A stretch of 32,512 nt of DNA, taken from NCBI GenBank assembly GCA_009787345.1, contig WRGF01000205.1, forward strand, positions 1 through 32,512, read 5' to 3'. Shown here piece after piece: positions 21,725-32,512 of this stretch (positions are counted from its first letter, which is position 1; each line of letters begins with the position of its first letter). A model generated the notes under the pieces. The model did no database searches, was not told the DNA's origin, and saw only the letters and a program-made list of their open reading frames with translations. The DNA is from Turicibacter sp. Lineage in GTDB: Bacteria > Bacillota_I > Bacilli_A > MOL361 > Turicibacteraceae. A program made the translations under genes and the position numbers.

Positions 21725-22776
21725 GGCGGCCGGAAATCAAATCCATAAAAATGCAGTTGGTCGCGTTTATCTTCTTAATGATGATGATGGCGTCGGTGCT
21801 GACGGGGATTTTGGTCCTGTTATCCATTTACCTTCAGGTTTGGGGGGCTGATGAGGTGCGCTTGGGGCTTCGATTTCCCCTGCACTCCATCACGCTGGTC
21901 TTTTTGATCGTTTCGTCCATTATCGGGTCGTGCCTGTCACTAGGGTTTTCCCAGCGTTTCTTGCATCCCATCTATACCTTGATCGAAGCCATGAAAGAAA
22001 TCCGCAAAGGCAATTACCATGTCCGGGTCAAAGGCGGGGGCAAGAACCAGGAAATCGGGCTCTTGATCCAAAATTTCAACGCCATGGCAGAGGAGCTTGA
22101 AGGGGTGGAAATGCTTAAATCGGATTTCATCAACTATTTTTCCCACGAGTTCAAGACTCCCATCATTTCCATCCAGGGGTTTGCCAAGCAGCTGCAAAAT
22201 GAAAATACCCCCGGGCATAAGCGGGAGGAATACCGTGAAATCATTGTCAAGGAAGCGGAGCGGCTGGTGAAGCTATCTACCAATACCCTATTGTTGACCA
22301 AACTTGAAAGCCAAAAAATCATTACCGACCAAAAATCCTTCCACCTGGACGAACAGATCCGCCACTGCATCCTGCTCCTTCAAAAGGAGTGGGAAGAAAA
22401 AGGGCTGGAGCTTGATTTGGACCTTTCAGAGGCCACCGTTTTTGGCAACGAAGAAATGCTGTCCCAGATCTGGATCAACCTTATCGGCAATGCAGTAGCT
22501 TACAGCAATCCTGGTGGCACCTTGACGGTTTCTTGCAAACCGGACGGGCAGCGGTTCAAAGTGCGCATCCAAGACGAGGGGGTCGGGATGAGCGATGAAG
22601 TCAGCGCCCGGATTTTCGATAAGTTTTATCAGGGGGATGCCTCCCGTTCCACCAAAGGGAATGGCCTAGGGCTTGCCATCGTCAAACGGATCGTCGACCT
22701 GTGCCAAGGCAGCATTTCCGTCAAGAGCCAAGAAGGCAAGGGAGCAGTCTTTATTGTTTACCTGCCGAAGTCATAA
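21721..22776 (+). CDS. Sensor histidine kinase (HAMP-HisKA-HATPase)
   Basis: A 351-residue membrane kinase. Two helices (about 11-38 and 56-76) enclose a very short outside loop of about 17 residues (QVWGADEVRLGLRFPLH), so it has almost no extracellular sensor domain, like intramembrane-sensing kinases that rely on a partner transporter for detection. Then HAMP (about 78-130), HisKA with phospho-accepting H142 in FSHEFKTPIISIQGFAKQL, and HATPase with N257 in NLIGNAVAYS, DEGVGM (285-290) and GNGLGLAIVKRIV. All catalytic boxes are intact. Overlaps the regulator by 4 nt and overlaps the convergent deacetylase gene by 6 nt, with no terminator between them. Confidence 0.94.
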   Translation: MRRPEIKSIKMQLVAFIFLMMMMASVLTGILVLLSIYLQVWGADEVRLGLRFPLHSITLVFLIVSSIIGSCLSLGFSQRFLHPIYTLIEAMKEIRKGNYHVRVKGGGKNQEIGLLIQNFNAMAEELEGVEMLKSDFINYFSHEFKTPIISIQGFAKQLQNENTPGHKREEYREIIVKEAERLVKLSTNTLLLTKLESQKIITDQKSFHLDEQIRHCILLLQKEWEEKGLELDLDLSEATVFGNEEMLSQIWINLIGNAVAYSNPGGTLTVSCKPDGQRFKVRIQDEGVGMSDEVSARIFDKFYQGDASRSTKGNGLGLAIVKRIVDLCQGSISVKSQEGKGAVFIVYLPKS

Positions 22777-23616
22777 ATTAGGTTCGTCTAAAAAATTCAG
22801 GGGAAAATGGATGGCTGGGTTGTAAGGCCTCAGTTCATAACCCTCGGTTTGTAAAAATTCGATGAGATAGGGCAGCGCCTCCACGGTGATGTCCTTTTCA
22901 TGCAGCAAAATGACGGCATGGGGAGAGCGGACCAGGTAGTTCAGGTCATGCTTCACCTGGTTTAACAGCGCATCGACTTCTTCAAGTTCCCAGTCGTGGG
23001 AATCCACGTTCCAGTCCCAGCAAGTAAAGGGCGACGCAGACACCAGCGCCACATGGCCGTCGGTGAACGTCCCCACCGTCCCATAAGGGGCCCGGCACAG
23101 GTTGGTTTCAAAGCCGCCGGTAAGCCGAAAGACCAAATCCTGGAGTTCGGTCATCTCCCCTAAAAAACGCAGGGGGGAAAAATCTTCGTAATAAAGCCGC
23201 TGTACGTCATGGCTCATGGAGTGCAGGCCAATATAATGGCCAACTGATGCCATCCGCAAAAGCAGTTTTTCAGAATCGTTGCGCCCGTTGATGGAATGGC
23301 CCAAAACGAAAAAAGTGCCTTTGACCCCATAATCGTCCAAAATGTCCAAAATGGCAGCGGTGTTCTTTGAGGGGCCGTCGTCGAAGGTCAAAAAAGCGTA
23401 TTTTTGCCCCGGGAGGAGGGCGGTAGCTGGGGTTTCTTCGGATAAAGGAGGTTCGTCACCATCAAAAAAAAACGAACTGTTTTCCATAAAGAGGGGAGGG
23501 CTTGCCGGCATGTCTGGGATAACCATAGGCGGCCGTGCAGTTGGGGTGAGGACCAGCCACAAAAAAATGCCGGATAGGAATATGGCAAACATTTGAATGG
23601 GTTTGAACGATGGCAT
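22771..23616 (-). CDS. NodB-family polysaccharide deacetylase, complete active site
   Basis: A 281-residue protein with an uncleaved signal-anchor (about 6-25), a linker, and a NodB carbohydrate-esterase-4 domain from about 70. All catalytic motifs are present: TFDDGP with base D79 and metal ligand D80; H132 and H136 in GLHSMSHD; R175 in RAPYG; D201 in CWDWNVDSHDW; H239 in ILLHE. It should remove N-acetyl groups from peptidoglycan or another surface polysaccharide outside the cell, which commonly raises lysozyme resistance. Shine-Dalgarno AAGGAGG. Its C-terminus (EGYELRPYNPAIHFPLNFL) matches that of the second NodB gene at 26.1 kb, showing the two are paralogues. The 3' end overlaps the sensor kinase gene. 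Confidence 0.93.
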   Translation of the reverse strand: MPSFKPIQMFAIFLSGIFLWLVLTPTARPPMVIPDMPASPPLFMENSSFFFDGDEPPLSEETPATALLPGQKYAFLTFDDGPSKNTAAILDILDDYGVKGTFFVLGHSINGRNDSEKLLLRMASVGHYIGLHSMSHDVQRLYYEDFSPLRFLGEMTELQDLVFRLTGGFETNLCRAPYGTVGTFTDGHVALVSASPFTCWDWNVDSHDWELEEVDALLNQVKHDLNYLVRSPHAVILLHEKDITVEALPYLIEFLQTEGYELRPYNPAIHFPLNFLDEPNL

Positions 23617-24081: not shown

Positions 24082-24155
24082 AAAAAGGCAGCCCTTGGGC
24101 TTAAGCCGTTTTTCGCAACAATCCAGGGGTATTTTCAGTCAGGGGAGGGGAGTTG

Positions 24156-25364
24156 ATGCCAGACCGGGGATTTTTGCCCATCGAGGCGCTTTGCCATCAG
24201 GGAATCTACAACACGCATTATGCTGATGCCCTTTTTTTTGAAGTGGACAGCCTGGAAACTTACATCAATTATATTTTAAAGCTATCGGAAAACGGGACGG
24301 AACTGGCTTTTCGGGGCGAGCATGACATCTTTGAGGAAACTTTGGCATCAGTGTTTCGGGTGCCAGGGCCCAAATGCCTCCCGGACATCCTGAAGAAAAA
24401 ATACTACAAGGAAATCGCCCACTCCCTCACGGACATCGAACGGGAAAATTTCATGTCCTATTCCCGCCATCATGGCCTTCCCACCGAACTTTTGGATATG
24501 ACCAGATTGCCGCTATATGCCCTGTATTTCGCCTGTAGCGACCGCTTTCATTCCAACATGGGGGTGGTCCAGGTGTTCAACTTGAAGGAAACCATGCGCC
24601 TTTCGGATTTTGAAACGGACAATTCCTACAATTATCAGATGTTTGACTTGTCCCAGGCCATTTTTAATTACTACCACCAAGGCACCGGCGACCAGTTTCT
24701 GCTAAAATTCACCCGCTTTTTAAGAAAGCACTTGGGGTACACCAAGCGCCTGCTAGGCGAGACGGCCCTCTACTTGTCGGAAATGCTTGCCTTGATGGAG
24801 CCGGATGGCTTAAAAGCCCTGAAAGAGAGGGAGCGGCTGATTTTGGGGCAGGTCCAGGAAGCCGGCGTCAAAGAGGTGGGGCTTGACCGCGCCTGCGGTC
24901 TCATCGTTGAAATGATCGGGAACCCTTTGATCCCTAAAAACCCGGCCATGGAGCAGGTCAAAGAGGAATGGCTTTCGGGGCTTGCAACCGTTGACCAGTC
25001 CCTCATCTGGTCATACATGGAGCTTTTGGGGCTTTCATTTGGGGTCTTGGACCTGGCCCTGGGCGCCGATGTAAAGGGCCGGGGGCTTTCCCTGCCGCCT
25101 TTTCCCGTGGTCCGCTACTCCCCCACAGCCAAATTCGACCGGATGCGGGCCCAAGAAGGGGAATTCTTTTATCAGCTGTACATGATCCGGGACGACGAGG
25201 CGGGCATCCGCCTGATTCCCCAAAAGATCAATTCCAATATCCGCTTCGTCATCAAGGACAAGGCCGCCATAAGGAAGCAGCTCAACACACTGGGCATTAA
25301 CCGCAAGCTGGTGTACCCGGATGCCGATAACATCGCCCGCTACCTGGCAGAATGGGAGTTTTAG
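24156..25364 (+). CDS. FRG-domain protein
   Basis: A 402-residue soluble protein named for the FRG motif: AFRGEHDIFE (51-60), followed by the strongest family block HHGLPTELLDMTRLPLYALYFAC (105-127) and, near the C-terminus, the expected closing block AAIRKQLNTLGINRKLVYPDADNIARYL. Between them lies an unusually long helical insert (about 175-330). FRG proteins are of unproven biochemistry, occur widely in accessory loci, and have been linked to phage-defence and mobile contexts. GGGGAGGGG (24142-24150) supports ATG 24156 rather than the TTG before it. It is followed 80 nt later by an HD-domain gene and, further on, by the McrB-like operon, so a defence-related role is possible but is inference only. 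Confidence 0.85.
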   Translation: MPDRGFLPIEALCHQGIYNTHYADALFFEVDSLETYINYILKLSENGTELAFRGEHDIFEETLASVFRVPGPKCLPDILKKKYYKEIAHSLTDIERENFMSYSRHHGLPTELLDMTRLPLYALYFACSDRFHSNMGVVQVFNLKETMRLSDFETDNSYNYQMFDLSQAIFNYYHQGTGDQFLLKFTRFLRKHLGYTKRLLGETALYLSEMLALMEPDGLKALKERERLILGQVQEAGVKEVGLDRACGLIVEMIGNPLIPKNPAMEQVKEEWLSGLATVDQSLIWSYMELLGLSFGVLDLALGADVKGRGLSLPPFPVVRYSPTAKFDRMRAQEGEFFYQLYMIRDDEAGIRLIPQKINSNIRFVIKDKAAIRKQLNTLGINRKLVYPDADNIARYLAEWEF

Positions 25365-25991: not shown

Positions 25992-26046
25992 GTCGAAATT
26001 TTCATCAGTTGGCGTGGGGATTTACATGTTTTATTGTCGGAATTTA

Positions 26047-26055
26047 TGATATAAT
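26047..26055 (+). promoter_or_regulatory. Extended -10 promoter of the second NodB gene
   Basis: TGATATAAT with perfect hexamer (26050-26055), 43 nt before the ATG. TTTACA at 26021-26026 is 23 nt upstream, too far for a standard -35. Confidence 0.6.
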
Positions 26056-26097: not shown

Positions 26098-26973
26098 ATG
26101 TTATCTAGCCGCAAATATCAGCGCACCAGTGTTTTTTCAACTAAAAAGGCGCGCCAAAGGAAAAGGAACCTGGATTTTGTTTATGGGATGTCCGCCATCG
26201 GGATGGCCTTTGCCACGGCGTTTAATTTTGTTGTCGGGCAAGTCATGCCGGTGTCGGGGCTGGTCATGACCGAACTGGATACCCCGCCACTTAATTTCAC
26301 GGAAACGGCCCCGGTCCGCCGGTGGCATAGCAATCAGATGCAGGTGGCTTACCTGAGCTTCAATGACGTGCCGGTGCAAAACTTGGGGCCTATCCTTGAT
26401 ATTTTAGTGGCCCATCAAGTGCCCGCCACCTTTTTTGTCCAAGGATCCCTTATCCAAAACGAACCGCTGATGGCAGGGTACCTGAGGCGGGCCATGGAAG
26501 CGGGGCATTACATCGGGCTCCACTCCATGACCCACAACACTTATTTGCTGTATGTCCAAGAGGGGGCGGCGCAGGCTTTTATGGCTGAAATGGAGGAAGC
26601 CCAGGCAATCTTATACGAGACGACAGGTTACGTTTCCAACTTGGTTCGGGCGCCATTTGGCAGTGCCAACAACTTCTCCCAAGACCACATCGACGCTGTG
26701 CTGGCATCAGATTTTCGGATTTGGGACTGGCATGTGGATTCCCAGGACTGGGTGGCGGGCCAGACCCCATCTGGCATGGTGGATACCCTTCGGTTTGGCA
26801 TGGATATTTGGGGCTGGCCGACGGACGTGGTGGTCTTGTTCCATGGGCGGGCAGTGACCGTTGATGCGTTGCCAGATGCCATCCGCTTTTTTGAGGCCGA
26901 GGGCTTTCGCTTCATGGCTTACGACCCCAACCGGCATTTTACCATGAACATGCTCCAGATACCAGGTTTGTAG
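26098..26973 (+). CDS. NodB-family protein with lost catalytic base (likely pseudoenzyme)
   Basis: A 291-residue paralogue of the deacetylase at 22.8-23.6 kb: signal-anchor helix at about 28-47 after a basic head, then a NodB domain. Aligning by eye, motif 1 TFDDGP has become SFNDVP: the base Asp is N89 and Gly is Val, while metal ligand D90 remains. The other motifs persist: H142 and H146 (GLHSMTHN), R184 (RAPFG), D210 (IWDWHVDSQDW), H249 (VLFHG). Metal and sugar binding may be retained with little or no hydrolysis. The C-terminus EGFRFMAYDPNRHFTMNML mirrors the paralogue. Shine-Dalgarno AGGGAG/GGGGAA upstream of ATG 26098. It is 11 nt ahead of a membrane-anchored partner gene. Frame is intact over the full length, so it is probably selected, not decaying. 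Confidence 0.9.
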   Translation: MLSSRKYQRTSVFSTKKARQRKRNLDFVYGMSAIGMAFATAFNFVVGQVMPVSGLVMTELDTPPLNFTETAPVRRWHSNQMQVAYLSFNDVPVQNLGPILDILVAHQVPATFFVQGSLIQNEPLMAGYLRRAMEAGHYIGLHSMTHNTYLLYVQEGAAQAFMAEMEEAQAILYETTGYVSNLVRAPFGSANNFSQDHIDAVLASDFRIWDWHVDSQDWVAGQTPSGMVDTLRFGMDIWGWPTDVVVLFHGRAVTVDALPDAIRFFEAEGFRFMAYDPNRHFTMNMLQIPGL

Positions 26974-26984
26974 GAGGCGGCTTG

Positions 26985-27644
26985 ATGAGAAAAAATAAAG
27001 TAGGGCTGATGCTCTTGTTGGCCCTTGGCTTGGCAGCCTCTTTGGTCTATGCTTTTAGGTTCAGCAACCCGGCAGTGAGGGCGTACCAATTTGGGCAAAA
27101 CATAGACGATGGCTTGGCGGATGCCGCCCTTTCCTTCCCTAAGCGGCGGGAGGAGCTGTTGGACCTTTTGCAACGGGATGTGGGGGATTTGGTCCGTATC
27201 GGGCAAAACTACGAAGCGGGCCTGAACATTGACCGGGAATTTGCCCATTTCCATGAAACCTATGGCTTGCTTGGGGATTACATCGCCACGGTCACGCCCA
27301 AAGTCGAGGCCATTTACCACCGTTCCGATTTTAACAGGGCACTGGCCCATGCAGGGCGCGCAGGGATCCATGCTTCGGTGGCAACCGGTTTCATCAGCTA
27401 TCAGCAAGAAAGGATGGGGGCCCTTTTGGCAGTCCATGGGGCATTGGCAGGCTTATATGAGGCGCTTTCTAGTTTTGAGGCGATGTTTTTTGAACCCGAC
27501 CCGTGGGTTGCCGTGCCATATTTTCAGGAAGTGCTGGACCGCTTCGACGAAATTGCCGTCCTTCATGACGGGTACTTGGATGCCCTGGGCAGCTATGCCC
27601 GCACCAAGACCGATTTTTACCTTGCCATACGGCAGGGGCGGTAA
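26985..27644 (+). CDS. Membrane-anchored helical protein of unknown function
   Basis: A 219-residue protein with a short basic head (MRKNKVG), one hydrophobic helix of about 18 residues (LMLLLALGLAASLVYAF) and a mostly helical outside domain of about 190 residues with regular leucine/alanine spacing. There is no Cys and no lipobox. No family recognised. Translation starts at ATG 26985 with AGGAGG 8-9 nt upstream (the TTG before it is less likely), only 11 nt after the NodB-like stop, so the two proteins are almost certainly made together and may interact at the outer membrane face. The helical outside domain could hold the NodB-like protein or the wall polymer, which is inference. Confidence 0.8.
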   Translation: MRKNKVGLMLLLALGLAASLVYAFRFSNPAVRAYQFGQNIDDGLADAALSFPKRREELLDLLQRDVGDLVRIGQNYEAGLNIDREFAHFHETYGLLGDYIATVTPKVEAIYHRSDFNRALAHAGRAGIHASVATGFISYQQERMGALLAVHGALAGLYEALSSFEAMFFEPDPWVAVPYFQEVLDRFDEIAVLHDGYLDALGSYARTKTDFYLAIRQGR

Positions 27645-27830: not shown

Positions 27831-27888
27831 AGGGGAAAATGAGAAAAATCCATCAAAATAAAGGGGGAAAAGCCTTGGCTTGACACTT

Positions 27889-29322
27889 ATGACAGAAAAA
27901 GAACTAATCGTAAAGTTAATCCACACCGACGAAGATGCCCATTATATTTTCAACGTTTTCAAAGACAACCATAAAAAAGGAAAATTTGCCTTTAAGCGGC
28001 TACGGGCCCAAAAGCTATTAGGGAACAAATCCCAGATTGATGAACTAAGCGCATCCGTCAGGGCACGGTTTGCCGATGGGGGATTAGATGTCCTGCTCTT
28101 GGAATTTTTACAACCGGAAGCCCCTAGCCATTTGCAACAATTCTTGCTGGTACGGGAATTTTATCCGGAATTTTTAAGGGAGAACTGGGATGCCGTCAGG
28201 GAAAATATAGAGCAGAAAAAACCTCCCTTTTCGGGGGTGAGCGCCCATAAGACGGAAGAGCAAGCCCTTCATTTCTACCAGCACCGCTATGGGGAGTTGA
28301 ACGGGGCGGCGCTGAATGCTATCTGGCAGGAAAGCATTCATACCGTCAAAATCGAGCTGAAGCTTTGGGATGTTTTTGAACAGGCGGTGAAGGGCAAAGG
28401 CCTGTTGGGGCTGGACAAACTGCTTGGGGGCGTTGGCCCTGGGGACGGCTTTGAGGTCAGCGTGCGGGAAAGTTATTTTATGGAGCATCGGGACGTTTTG
28501 GCGGATGCGGACATAAGGAGAATGGAACAGGGTTGCCGGGATCAGTTGGTGCGGCTCGCTATCATAACGGTATTTTTAGAGGCAGGGGAGTGCCCAAATG
28601 AGGTGCGCTTGAACCTGATGCGGGAACTGCAGCGGGCTTATTTTCTAGCAAAGACACAGATTTTAGGGCTCGGCACGCTGCTTAGCCTATTAGAAGGGAA
28701 AAATGAGTACGACCAATTAAACCTAAAATATCAACAGTCCCAAAAAGAAAGGACGGCCTTAAGCCAAAAAAACCAGGAAATCAGCCAACAAAACAGCGCC
28801 ATCAAGAGGGGGGACGAAACATTGAAACAACAAATTGCCCATTTAAAACAAGTCATCAATGAACAAAATGAAAAATTGGGCCAATCGGCCCGGTTGCAGG
28901 TGGCCGGCCAGGAGGAGTTGGAAAAAATCGCACAACTTTCCCAAAAGGAGCAGGCCCATTTAAAAAGCCGCCTGCAAAGCTACGAAAACCTGGCGAAGGG
29001 CTACCAGTGGCTATTGTCCCGCGACCTTAGCGTCCACGAAGTGGCGGTGGTCTACAGCTCCCCATTGCTTTACGCCAAGCATATATATCATGAAGTGCTT
29101 TTTATGGGCGTATCCCAGGCGCTAAAAGAGCCATTTAAAGCCCAAAAACTGTTGGTTCAGCTAGTGGGCCTAAGCGGCAAGGAGAAAAAACAGCTGGAAA
29201 AGCTGGCCAGTGCCAAGGGAGTGGAAGCCGTCATGCTTGAAAGCGTGGATGAACGGGATTTGATCATGGACATCGCCTGTTACCTTAAGGAAAGTGAGGG
29301 AGTCTTTCATGAATCAGCTTAG
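27889..29322 (+). CDS. Coiled-coil protein, first gene of McrB/DUF2357 operon
   Basis: A soluble protein of about 477 residues in three parts. N-terminal helical domain (1-270), with a short conserved-looking ELKLWDVFEQAVKGKGLLGLDKLL segment; a long coiled coil (about 270-365) rich in Gln/Lys/Glu heptads (QQSQKERTALSQKNQEIS and QIAHLKQVINEQNEKL); and a C-terminal alpha/beta domain (about 370-477: SVHEVAVVYSSPLLYA, KLLVQLVGLSGKEKKQLEKLA, VEAVMLESVDERDLIMDIA), which looks like a small Rossmann-like unit. No known catalytic motif seen and no family recognised. The ribosome site is poor: AAGGGGG (27861-27867) is 12 nt from TTG 27880 and 21 nt from ATG 27889, so the start may be the TTG. Its end overlaps the McrB-like gene by 14 nt, so both are coupled. 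It is probably the targeting or scaffold subunit (inference). Confidence 0.8.
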   Translation: MTEKELIVKLIHTDEDAHYIFNVFKDNHKKGKFAFKRLRAQKLLGNKSQIDELSASVRARFADGGLDVLLLEFLQPEAPSHLQQFLLVREFYPEFLRENWDAVRENIEQKKPPFSGVSAHKTEEQALHFYQHRYGELNGAALNAIWQESIHTVKIELKLWDVFEQAVKGKGLLGLDKLLGGVGPGDGFEVSVRESYFMEHRDVLADADIRRMEQGCRDQLVRLAIITVFLEAGECPNEVRLNLMRELQRAYFLAKTQILGLGTLLSLLEGKNEYDQLNLKYQQSQKERTALSQKNQEISQQNSAIKRGDETLKQQIAHLKQVINEQNEKLGQSARLQVAGQEELEKIAQLSQKEQAHLKSRLQSYENLAKGYQWLLSRDLSVHEVAVVYSSPLLYAKHIYHEVLFMGVSQALKEPFKAQKLLVQLVGLSGKEKKQLEKLASAKGVEAVMLESVDERDLIMDIACYLKESEGVFHESA

Positions 29323-31267
29323 TTATGAAATCAACCCCCAGTTGAAGTCGGAACTGATGAAATGCCAAAACATCGTCATGTTGGGGCAAATTGCGGCAAA
29401 CAGGCCCCTTTACCCCCGCTCAGGGCTATGGAATGAACCCATCACGCCTATGCGCCAGGGCAATAATATCTTATTTTATGTGGAAGCCTGCTGTAGCGAG
29501 CCCGACCCCATCCTGTCTTTGAAAGGGCGCGAAATCCGGGAAAGCTTTTACATCGGACAAGACGGGGACCAATACGGCGGCATCATCAAAGAACAGACGT
29601 ATTATTTAAAAACCGAGGACGACAAGGTCGCTTACTGGGAAAATGCCCTTGTTGGCAAACTGATCGTCTTCCGCCCGAAAGTCAAGATTAATGGGGACCG
29701 CTACTACCTGAATATCCAGATCCAGTCCATCGAGGACAATGTGGCAGACGGGTTTTCGCCTCGGTTCTTGAGCATCCCCCATAGCGTAAGCGACGGGGAT
29801 GCTTTTAATAACCGTCTCCTTGAGGGTGGCTTTGTCATTTTGAAGGACTACCCCCACCTTAATCAAGATCCCGCCTACATCATCAATGGGGATTACCTGT
29901 ACTTTGGCTTTGGGGCATGGCAAAAGCACCCGACCCAGCATAATGCCTGGCGTGCCAGCGATGGCCTATCAGATATCAAGCGGGTGAAGCTCAGCCAATT
30001 TTTAGCAGAGCTTGAAAGCTGCCTGGTAGATACGACCGCTGCCATCTCATTTTTTAATGAGGAGGCGGAGGAGATGCTAAGGCCCCGATTCGAGGAAATG
30101 GGCGAAAAGCTCATCAAGCGGGACACGGGCCGCCTATCGGTTTTGGAAAAGCCAGGGACCGAGTTTGAGTTTTTGAAGCATTTCAAAGCCTGCACGGTTA
30201 TGGAAAGCCTGGTATACAACGAAAAAGACCTCCTGAATTTCCACATCAGCATGAAAACCAACGCCTTGATAGTCCTTGCGGGCATGTCAGGGACAGGAAA
30301 GACCCGGCTGGCAAAATCCTATGCCAAGACCTTAGGGATAACGGAGCCTGATGGGCGCCTTTTGTTCATGCCCATCTCTCCTAGTTATTTGGAGCCCTCC
30401 GATGTCTTGGGCTATTTGAACCATACGACCGGCAGGTACATGCCATCGGAAACTGGGTTGGTGGATTTGCTGGTGCGTGCCACGAGGCATCCAGAGGAGC
30501 TTCACATGGTCATCTTTGACGAAATGAACCTGTCCCAAGTGGAGCACTGGTTCGCACCGCTCCTTTCTTTATTGGAGTTGAAAACGGAGGAGCGCATCCT
30601 TAACCTTTATAGCAGCCAAACCCCTTGTGCCAATCAAGAAAGCTACCCATCCCAAGTGGGGATTGGCGACAACATCTTGTTTGTGGGGACCGTCAACCTA
30701 GACGAGACCACCAAGGAATTTTCCGACCGCCTGCTCGACCGGGTCAACATGGTCACCATCCAAAAAGGAAGCTTTTTGGAAATGAAGCGCCTGGGAAGAA
30801 AACTTTATCCTGCCCGTACCTTCAGTTTCAGGGAATTTGACAGCTGGCGAAGTACCAGAGGGGGCATTGAAATTTTTGAAGATGCGGAACTGGCATTTTT
30901 TGATAGCCTCCACAGCCTCATCAATCAATACGACAGCCAAAAAGGGGTGTCATACCGCTTCTTGAACCGGTTGGCGCAATACATCGGCAACATTCCCGAG
31001 GGGATGGACGACATGCATCGGCTGACCAAGGGGGAGGCCATCGACCTTGGCATCAAACAGGGGCTTTTGACAAAAATCAAAGGGAACCGCCAGCATGTAG
31101 GCGCCTTGATTGGGGAAATCCCGCAACCGGGGGGGCAGCTGGAAAGCAGCGGGCTATTCGACTTGCTGAAGGACAAGGAATCGGCCCAGGTTTCCGATTT
31201 TATCCATACCCAAAAGGAACTGTACCGAAAGGCCCAGGAACTAGGTATTTATGGATACACCGGCTAG
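29309..31267 (+). CDS. McrB-like AAA+ NTPase with N-terminal recognition domain
   Basis: A 652-residue protein. Residues 1-300 are a beta-rich N-terminal region (IIKEQTYYLKTEDD, KLIVFRPKV, RYYLNIQIQS, DYLYFGFGAW) of unrecognised fold, in the place where McrB proteins carry their modified-base-reading domain. Residues about 305-560 are a MoxR/McrB-clade AAA+ module: Walker A GMSGTGKT (325-332), Walker B VIFDEMNLSQVEHWF (401-415), sensor-1 GTVNLDETTKEFSDRLLDRVN (460-480). The NLDE string stands where McrB has its NTAD guanine-specificity motif, so GTP or ATP use is open. It should form a hexameric motor that loads the nuclease from the next gene. ATG 29309 follows GAGGGAG; the GTG at 29294 is within this site. 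Overlaps both neighbours (14 and 17 nt). Confidence 0.9.
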   Translation: MNQLSYEINPQLKSELMKCQNIVMLGQIAANRPLYPRSGLWNEPITPMRQGNNILFYVEACCSEPDPILSLKGREIRESFYIGQDGDQYGGIIKEQTYYLKTEDDKVAYWENALVGKLIVFRPKVKINGDRYYLNIQIQSIEDNVADGFSPRFLSIPHSVSDGDAFNNRLLEGGFVILKDYPHLNQDPAYIINGDYLYFGFGAWQKHPTQHNAWRASDGLSDIKRVKLSQFLAELESCLVDTTAAISFFNEEAEEMLRPRFEEMGEKLIKRDTGRLSVLEKPGTEFEFLKHFKACTVMESLVYNEKDLLNFHISMKTNALIVLAGMSGTGKTRLAKSYAKTLGITEPDGRLLFMPISPSYLEPSDVLGYLNHTTGRYMPSETGLVDLLVRATRHPEELHMVIFDEMNLSQVEHWFAPLLSLLELKTEERILNLYSSQTPCANQESYPSQVGIGDNILFVGTVNLDETTKEFSDRLLDRVNMVTIQKGSFLEMKRLGRKLYPARTFSFREFDSWRSTRGGIEIFEDAELAFFDSLHSLINQYDSQKGVSYRFLNRLAQYIGNIPEGMDDMHRLTKGEAIDLGIKQGLLTKIKGNRQHVGALIGEIPQPGGQLESSGLFDLLKDKESAQVSDFIHTQKELYRKAQELGIYGYTG

Positions 31268-32512
31268 CCTAAGGTTTGAAAATAGCTTTAAATCCCTGGT
31301 TATCCCATTGAGCCCCGACCGCCATTGGGACCAAAAGCTGTTTAGCCTTTCTGAGCTCATCCCTACCACCCTTACGTTTTTGGGTCCGGGCAAGCTGACC
31401 CTGGAAGAAACCCTCGTCCCCGGCGGGTGCGCTTTGATACAGGACTATATCCCTGGGCGCTATAACCTGGTTTGGGAAACAGGGGAAGGACGGGTTTATG
31501 AAGGTTTTTTTGAAATCCACCCCCATTCCTTAAGCCTGGATGAAATGGCAGGGATGTTTGCAGCCCTGGAAAACAAAGTGCCTGGCATCACCCAAAACCC
31601 GGACTTCAACTCGGGGGCATACCAGGACCTGGGATGGGCTGGCGGCTCTGATTTGAAAATGAGGTATTTAGCCCGCCAAAGCGAAAAAATCGCCTCGGCG
31701 CTTGCCGCTATCCAAAGGCAGCCCATAAAAGCCCTTGGCCAGTCCTATAGCCTTTCACCGAAAAGCAAAAGGCCCACGGCAAAAAGCCAGCGATATGGCC
31801 AAACCCATGGCAGCAGTGCCCTTAATTATGAGCCGGTGAAGTCCCTTACTTTTGATACAGTGGAAAACCGCCAGTTAAAAGGGATGGTGTCTTATTTGTT
31901 GGGACTGGCTGACGGACTCCTGCAACAAGCCATGCAGCAGCAAGCCGCCATCGAGCGGCAATTGTCAAAGACCCGCCAAGAAATTGCGACGCTAAAAAAT
32001 AACCTGGGGCTGTTAGGCGCCAAAAACTTCTCCAAAACGTATTCGGATTGGAAGGGGCGGCTGGAGCTTGGGGAAAGCGAGGAAAGGCGGCTCTTGCGGG
32101 AGGGACAGGCCCACGAGCTTCGCTACGCCCCCTTAAAAGGGTTGAAAACGCAGCTTGGCCTCATAAACTGCGCCCCGTGGTTTTTGAAAGTGCCTGCCCC
32201 CAAGTACGGGGAGTCGCCAAGGAATTTATGGCGCCACCGGGGGTATAGCGAGGTCTATCAAGCCTATTTGGACCTCCAGTCGAAAAATCCAGGTGGGGAA
32301 GGTGCGGGTGCCAGCCATCCGACTTCCAAGCTATTTGAGTTTTACGCTTTCCTTTTGTGCCATGAAATGCTCCTTGCCAGCGGCCTTTCAAGCGAATTGC
32401 CAATGACTGCTATTGTGGCGGGGGATTCCTTCGGTTATTTACACCCCTCCGGTGCCAGGGTGTCCCTGTCATATGACAAGACGGTTGCTGATGTGGCGGC
32501 TGCCCGCCAGTC
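31251..32512 (+). CDS. DUF2357/McrC-like protein, 3' truncated by window end
   Basis: The frame opened by ATG 31251, inside the end of the McrB-like gene (17-nt overlap), stays open for 420 codons to the window edge. The N-terminal part is beta-rich (TLTFLGPGKLTLEE, YNLVWETGEGRVYEGFF), as in DUF2357 proteins that pair with McrB-type motors. It is followed by the hallmark LTFDTVENRQLKGMVSYLL (compare 'YDTPENRFVK' of DUF2357), a helical coiled segment (QQAAIERQLSKTRQEIATL), the LWRHRGYSEVYQAYLDL block and LFEFYAFLLCHEML, which precedes the PD-(D/E)XK nuclease core in relatives. The window ends just before the catalytic Asp and Glu/Lys would appear, so the nuclease itself is not seen. By analogy with McrC it should be the effector. 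Confidence 0.82.
   Translation, partial: MDTPASLRFENSFKSLVIPLSPDRHWDQKLFSLSELIPTTLTFLGPGKLTLEETLVPGGCALIQDYIPGRYNLVWETGEGRVYEGFFEIHPHSLSLDEMAGMFAALENKVPGITQNPDFNSGAYQDLGWAGGSDLKMRYLARQSEKIASALAAIQRQPIKALGQSYSLSPKSKRPTAKSQRYGQTHGSSALNYEPVKSLTFDTVENRQLKGMVSYLLGLADGLLQQAMQQQAAIERQLSKTRQEIATLKNNLGLLGAKNFSKTYSDWKGRLELGESEERRLLREGQAHELRYAPLKGLKTQLGLINCAPWFLKVPAPKYGESPRNLWRHRGYSEVYQAYLDLQSKNPGGEGAGASHPTSKLFEFYAFLLCHEMLLASGLSSELPMTAIVAGDSFGYLHPSGARVSLSYDKTVADVAAARQ

Follow-up and report, generated by a model that had tools for sequence, protein, structure and literature searches.

The locus described here raises the question of what role is left to a polysaccharide deacetylase homologue that carries asparagine at the position of its catalytic base and is coupled to a membrane-anchored partner. 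Peptidoglycan deacetylation controls lysozyme resistance and the access of wall hydrolases, and the tethering and regulation of the deacetylases have only begun to be understood, through PdcF and IpdA of Bacillus anthracis. The window, that is, the whole stretch of 32,512 nucleotides from Turicibacter sp. that was analysed, contains the following features bearing on this question:

26021..26050, + strand: possible sigma-70-type promoter upstream of the pair (TTTACA-18-TATGAT), a consensus match only, of a kind whose count is not above chance
26098..26973, + strand: CE4/NodB polysaccharide deacetylase homologue, a predicted pseudo-deacetylase of 291 aa with an N-terminal membrane anchor and the motif SFNDVP (hereafter the N89 protein)
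26257..26340, + strand: membrane-proximal linker, residues 54-81, L-x-F-x(5)-V-x-x-W-H, proposed from the linker alignment and by analogy to the PdaN N-terminus and PdcF
26356..26376, + strand: degenerate motif 1, residues 87-93 (T87S F88 D89N D90 G91V P92 S93V), with 4/7 otherwise invariant positions changed
26972..26984, + strand: intergenic gap with AGGAGG, likely translational coupling (gap proper 26974-26984, 11 nt)
26985..27644, + strand: single-pass membrane-anchored helical-bundle protein, 219 aa from the ATG, a candidate PdcF/YkyA-like co-factor
22771..23616, - strand: paralogous CE4 deacetylase with TFDDGP intact, without the linker and without a partner gene, probably the active counterpart

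By profile and structure matches, the product of 26098-26973 is a CE4 (NodB) protein of the PgdA/Bc1974 type, the GlcNAc-type branch. It matched Polysacc_deac_1/NodB (PF01522) with an E-value of 2.7e-20 (73 bits versus a cut-off of 23.1), and its closest NCBIfam model was NF045822, the Bc1974-type GlcNAc deacetylase (E 1.4e-38), where it scored under the equivalog cut-off (132.8 versus 400 bits), as did the intact paralogue (156.5). The closest solved structure was Bc1974 (phmmer 7e-31), and the predicted model, an (alpha/beta) barrel, superposes on it (Foldseek E 1.3e-14; TM 0.88 by target), residues 50-79 being of low confidence in the predicted monomer. The reading frame was confirmed as intact: 291 codons with zero internal stops, closed by TAG at 26971-26973, and with a codon-position GC (0.57/0.40/0.66) resembling that of the neighbouring genes.

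Motif 1 of this protein reads S87-F88-N89-D90-V91-P92, in which Asn replaces the Asp that serves as catalytic base; the replacement of TFDDGP by SFNDVP, pointed out in the initial annotation, was seen directly against the relatives and the paralogue. In the alignment TFDDGP was found in 9/9 pair-type relatives and in the window paralogue, N89 and V91 being unique to the 26098-26973 product. It was also read in all 78 additional named homologues, among the matches listed, whose motif could be read, a set partly fetched by the TFDDGPS pattern and to that extent biased toward this motif. Against the nine pair-type relatives and the paralogue, the N89 protein keeps the metal triad D90/H142/H146, R184, D214/D217 and H249. 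All of D90, H142, H146, R184, D210 and H249 had initially been called metal ligands, which holds for the first three; the ligands of CE4 enzymes are the second Asp of motif 1 and the His-His of motif 2 only (PMC4505593, PMC10967932). The other residues have other roles: the motif-3 Arg, here R184, orients the catalytic base (PMC4505593, PMC10967932), and the motif-4 Asp, to be found in VDSQDW (D214/D217) instead of at D210, forms the acid relay with the motif-5 His, the catalytic acid H249 (PMC10967932, PMC4505593).

The alteration is wider than motif 1. Ten of 53 family-invariant positions, as defined on 16 relatives from the same family, are altered in the N89 protein (K82Q, T87S, D89N, G91V, S93V, C183V, Y187F, C208I, E250G and Y270F); T87S, S93V, C183V, Y187F, C208I and E250G come in addition to the losses listed initially. 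The other 43, metal ligands included, are kept at 39% overall identity, and the paralogue alters 3 of the same 53. The changes concentrate in motif 1 (4/7 invariants versus 6/46 elsewhere; one-sided Fisher p 0.018), a result that is supportive only, given small counts and a motif picked because of the finding.

The second gene follows at once: the 11-nt gap to a 219-residue anchored protein, noted initially, was confirmed (gap 26974-26984, ORF 26985-27644), and AGGAGG at 26972-26977 overlaps the deacetylase stop codon, an arrangement in which the two genes are likely translationally coupled. No RNA element was found near the pair by an Rfam scan. The partner had been assigned to no known family, which is true of Pfam and NCBIfam, where it gave no family match. 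AlphaFold (mean pLDDT 89) models it as a helical bundle preceded by an anchor helix at the N-terminus, and a fold search with this model returned generic helical bundles and no significant PDB match. A profile built from ten members gave strong matches in 6/395 genomes of the class, all of one family, and nowhere outside that family among 392 genomes of the phylum; an order-level search likewise added no genomes beyond it.

The relation of the partner to YkyA proteins, the family of PdcF, was approached from both sides. PF10368 (YkyA) weakly matches 4/10 partner relatives (best E 0.0026), and other helical families score equally well. Among ORFs of independently fetched loci, a ranking that leaves out the loci fetched by the partner profile itself (L139-L142), YkyA proteins gave the best partner-profile scores outside the profile's own members, and reciprocally the next best YkyA matches include three partner-family members; an hhalign comparison of the two families gave a probability of 17%, which is not significant. 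These scores are no more than suggestive of shared descent between the partner family and YkyA/PdcF. In the window genome, no PF10368 match was found. Weak partner-profile matches in other families (L139:1402-2067, L140:1306-1971 and L141:105-635) are conserved membrane proteins whose genes adjoin that of another conserved protein (about 440 aa); they look LemA-like by eye, have no CE4 neighbour and were set aside.

Pairing was followed in a collection in which the window genome is the sole member of its genus and seven other genomes belong to its family. The partner family lies directly downstream of a deacetylase in 10/10 loci found, at three genomic locations, with a gap of 11-17 nt in all ten, window included. 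The suggestion of a dedicated partner is borne out in so far as the family occurs only beside a deacetylase at these ten loci, and it resembles PdcF/YkyA (PMC12700454). One pair (pair I), deacetylase then helical protein, lies beside another CE4 gene in five sister-genus genomes, and a second copy (pair II) lies elsewhere in four of the five. In three of the five (L143, L144 and L146) pair I lies between a dehydrogenase-like gene and the CE4 gene, the latter adjoining a large gene read as ptsI. The same CE4-dehydrogenase locus is without the pair in the window genome (L153); across these loci the pair thus occupies three places in the family, always together. The linker L-x-F-x(5)-V-x-x-W-H is common to the N89 protein and the partner-linked relatives in the alignment and missing from the partnerless paralogue; by analogy to PdaN, residues 54-81 are a candidate docking segment for the helical partner.

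Alignment of orthologues had been proposed to see whether Asn and Val are conserved at motif 1, and they are not, since the orthologous pairs all carry Asp. Because every other pair-type deacetylase reads TFDDGP, the Asn at the base position is, on the aligned sequences, specific to this lineage, where it is seen in one genome. A class-level search found no relative above 38% identity outside the family, and a contig search with the single protein found no relative.

Several other elements of the window were recorded alongside the pair. An FRG-domain protein is encoded at 24153-25364, between both deacetylase genes (Pfam E 4e-12; PADLOC PDC-S15 up to 3e-27), and is a candidate defence gene. 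Adjoining the pair on the other side, 27880-32512 holds a three-gene run, a candidate defence system, in which an AAA+ ATPase matches PADLOC PDC-M26A (E 4e-37) and its neighbour, a weak PDC-M26B match, extends off the contig end. Further away, an Rfam match to the cspA thermoregulator lies at 2417-2747 (78.4 bits versus a gathering threshold of 78).

Comparison of the two halves of the pair revealed different tempos. Partner identity is 26% between the window and pair I and 27% between pair I and pair II, and NodB-domain identity is 39% between the N89 protein and pair I and 60% between pair I and pair II; the partner thus diverged at about the normal rate, and it is therefore the deacetylase half, not the partner, that changed fast. 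The paralogue, 2.5 kb from the N89 gene, shares 50% NodB-domain identity with pair I versus 39% for the N89 protein, and keeps 74/92 pair-type invariant positions versus 59/92. In the tree the N89 protein is on a long branch (1.88) and not firmly placed; a sister relation to the paralogue was not rejected (p-AU 0.14).

A fast-evolving deacetylase half, Asp in all orthologous pairs, an Asn known from one genome only and an intact paralogue 2.5 kb away would also be expected if the pair had become redundant after a duplication that left an active copy at 22771-23616, the Asn being a sporadic mutation or one of the first lesions of early decay. We regard this as unlikely, for the 291-codon frame is intact with normal codon-position GC, 43 of 53 family-invariant positions survive with the metal ligands among them at such low overall identity, the partner is itself intact and diverging normally, and the changes cluster in motif 1 instead of being scattered. 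The intact frame and the rates, as read from one genome, fit a shifted or relaxed catalytic constraint with retention of the pair better than simple decay.

As to activity, no description of the activity of SpPgdA D275N was found in a literature search, and PdaA D73N was for that reason used as the analogue. This same Asp-to-Asn change abolished MurNAc deacetylation in PdaA, none being detectable, and SwsB, in which Asn is native at the base position, is not a deacetylase (PMC12444981). By this analogy the N89 protein can likely no longer deacetylate, and the initial call of a pseudoenzyme gains support by inference from both cases. That it is still a deacetylase, perhaps weak or partner-dependent, with the metal alone or a different residue activating the water, would agree with the retention of all remaining catalytic residues and with a partner family that is a candidate activating co-factor (PMC12700454). 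Given the behaviour of PdaA D73N and the further changes near the site (T87, G91, S93 and E250), it is distinctly improbable. Least probable of all, and very unlikely in our estimate, is a switch of chemistry, for example to muramic-delta-lactam cyclisation, in which the protein would catalyse a different reaction on deacetylated peptidoglycan: SwsB with the same native Asn is a lactam cyclase, PdaA D73N retains cyclase activity and the catalytic His essential in both (PMC12444981) is kept here as H249, but SwsB also altered two neighbouring active-site residues, including loss of the base-positioning Arg, the N89 protein belongs to the PgdA/Bc1974 and not the PdaA/SwsB branch, and a SwsB-like role is less likely because R184 is kept and the genome has its own YlxY/SwsB homologue.

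That homologue (L004:1132-2097 on contig C79; 224 bits, below the cut-off) carries the motif LLINVAWG and sits downstream of a polynucleotide-phosphorylase (pnp)-like gene; its presence suggests that the organism may form endospores. The genome also encodes a second base-less CE4 protein, PdaA-like, on contig C209 at about 18.0-18.8 kb (L003:1312-2103), which is more SwsB-like, with TFNMGF as motif 1 (Asp to Asn) and LSPPSG as motif 3 (Arg to Ser). Relatives in the family (L023, L024, L032 and L036) and the other copy in this genome (L001) have TFDCG or TFDAG with LRPPEG.

The explanation we lean towards, with confidence slightly above even, is a PdaN-PdcF-like pair whose enzyme became deacetylase-dead, leaving a co-factor-bound, non-catalytic peptidoglycan-binding unit. 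It builds on the sequence changes, the conserved pairing, the predicted folds and the fast evolution confined to the deacetylase half, from which we infer the loss of activity, a physical complex and the present role. The two genes would be co-transcribed as a deacetylase/co-factor pair of the PdaN-PdcF type, whose deacetylase subunit would have lost its catalytic base in this lineage and with it N-acetyl hydrolysis. The N89 protein would retain the barrel, the metal site, the remaining glycan-binding groove and the membrane-proximal linker, and the helical partner, anchored in the membrane, would grip the NodB domain via that linker. The complex would then stabilise the wall or modulate active deacetylases, e.g. 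the paralogue at 22771-23616, rather than deacetylate. A wall-polymer receptor or a regulator of the active paralogue, the roles proposed initially, is a possibility for the N89 protein. Retention of the binding surface can be read from the alignment no further than the linker, because the pair-type invariants are better conserved in the paralogue.

A more specific form, which we hold to be rather doubtful, is a split of functions after duplication: 22771-23616 would have kept catalysis but given up the partner and the linker, and 26098-26973 would have kept these two, given up catalysis and become a dedicated regulator, either through occupation of acetylated wall glycan or through holding or titrating the sole PdcF-like co-factor found in the genome, so that the dead paralogue would set where or how much the active deacetylases work.

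Both halves of the preferred reading, a deacetylase-dead enzyme and its co-factor, are already known, as Asp-to-Asn CE4 proteins and as CE4 deacetylases with a helical tether or co-factor. For the latter, the YkyA protein PdcF of B. anthracis serves the CE4 GlcNAc deacetylase PdaN as co-factor and probably as tether; an effect in B. subtilis requires the two together, and in AF3 models the N-terminus of PdaN, otherwise of low confidence, becomes ordered by PdcF (PMC12700454). The corresponding region of the N89 protein is residues 50-79, the low-confidence part of its monomer model. The window pair resembles PdaN and PdcF in combining a CE4 protein, flexible at its membrane-proximal N-terminus, with a small membrane-tethered helical-bundle protein (PMC12700454), and in gene adjacency, as in several Bacilli; its own CE4 gene is coupled directly to its partner (11-nt gap, anchor helix and bundle model). 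In Paenibacillus alvei, Sporosarcina and the sister-genus genome G003, too, a YkyA-family (PF10368) lipoprotein gene was found immediately after a CE4 gene. PdaN is, however, an active deacetylase whereas the window counterpart is without the base Asp, and PdcF is a lipoprotein matched by PF10368 whereas the window partner has a transmembrane-helix anchor and is unmatched.

Among base-altered CE4 proteins, SwsB/YlxY (TIGR02873) shares the natural Asp-to-Asn change at the catalytic base but differs in its branch, an extra N-terminal domain, loss of the base-positioning Arg and its function as a spore lactam cyclase; the N89 protein scores 45.5 bits against that model (cut-off 391.5) and keeps R184. 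BA3943 (PDB 7bkf) was deposited under the title CE4 family pseudoenzyme. We assume it probably to fall in the SwsB/YlxY group. BA0150 (PDB 4m1b) likewise has a CE4 fold with altered motif 1 and is considered catalytically inert (PMC6115787, PMC10967932), but its motif 2 is altered and no metal is bound, whereas the metal triad of the N89 protein is intact. BA0330 and BA0331 of B. anthracis are wall-stabilising surface CE4 proteins in which no deacetylase activity was detectable, and their catalytic Asp is dispensable for complementation (PMC4505593); unlike the N89 protein they are of NodB2 type with an Fn3 domain, and that Asp is present. Against this background the N89 protein is probably a genuine pseudoenzyme, of a known kind and unusually paired, and what is new is the combination: a base-less enzyme that retains a co-factor-like partner, near a base-intact, partnerless paralogue. 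If true, the SwsB-type Asp-to-Asn change would have arisen independently in the GlcNAc-type branch, and a dead enzyme with the co-factor beside an active-looking enzyme without it would allow the non-catalytic contribution of the co-factor to be studied cleanly.
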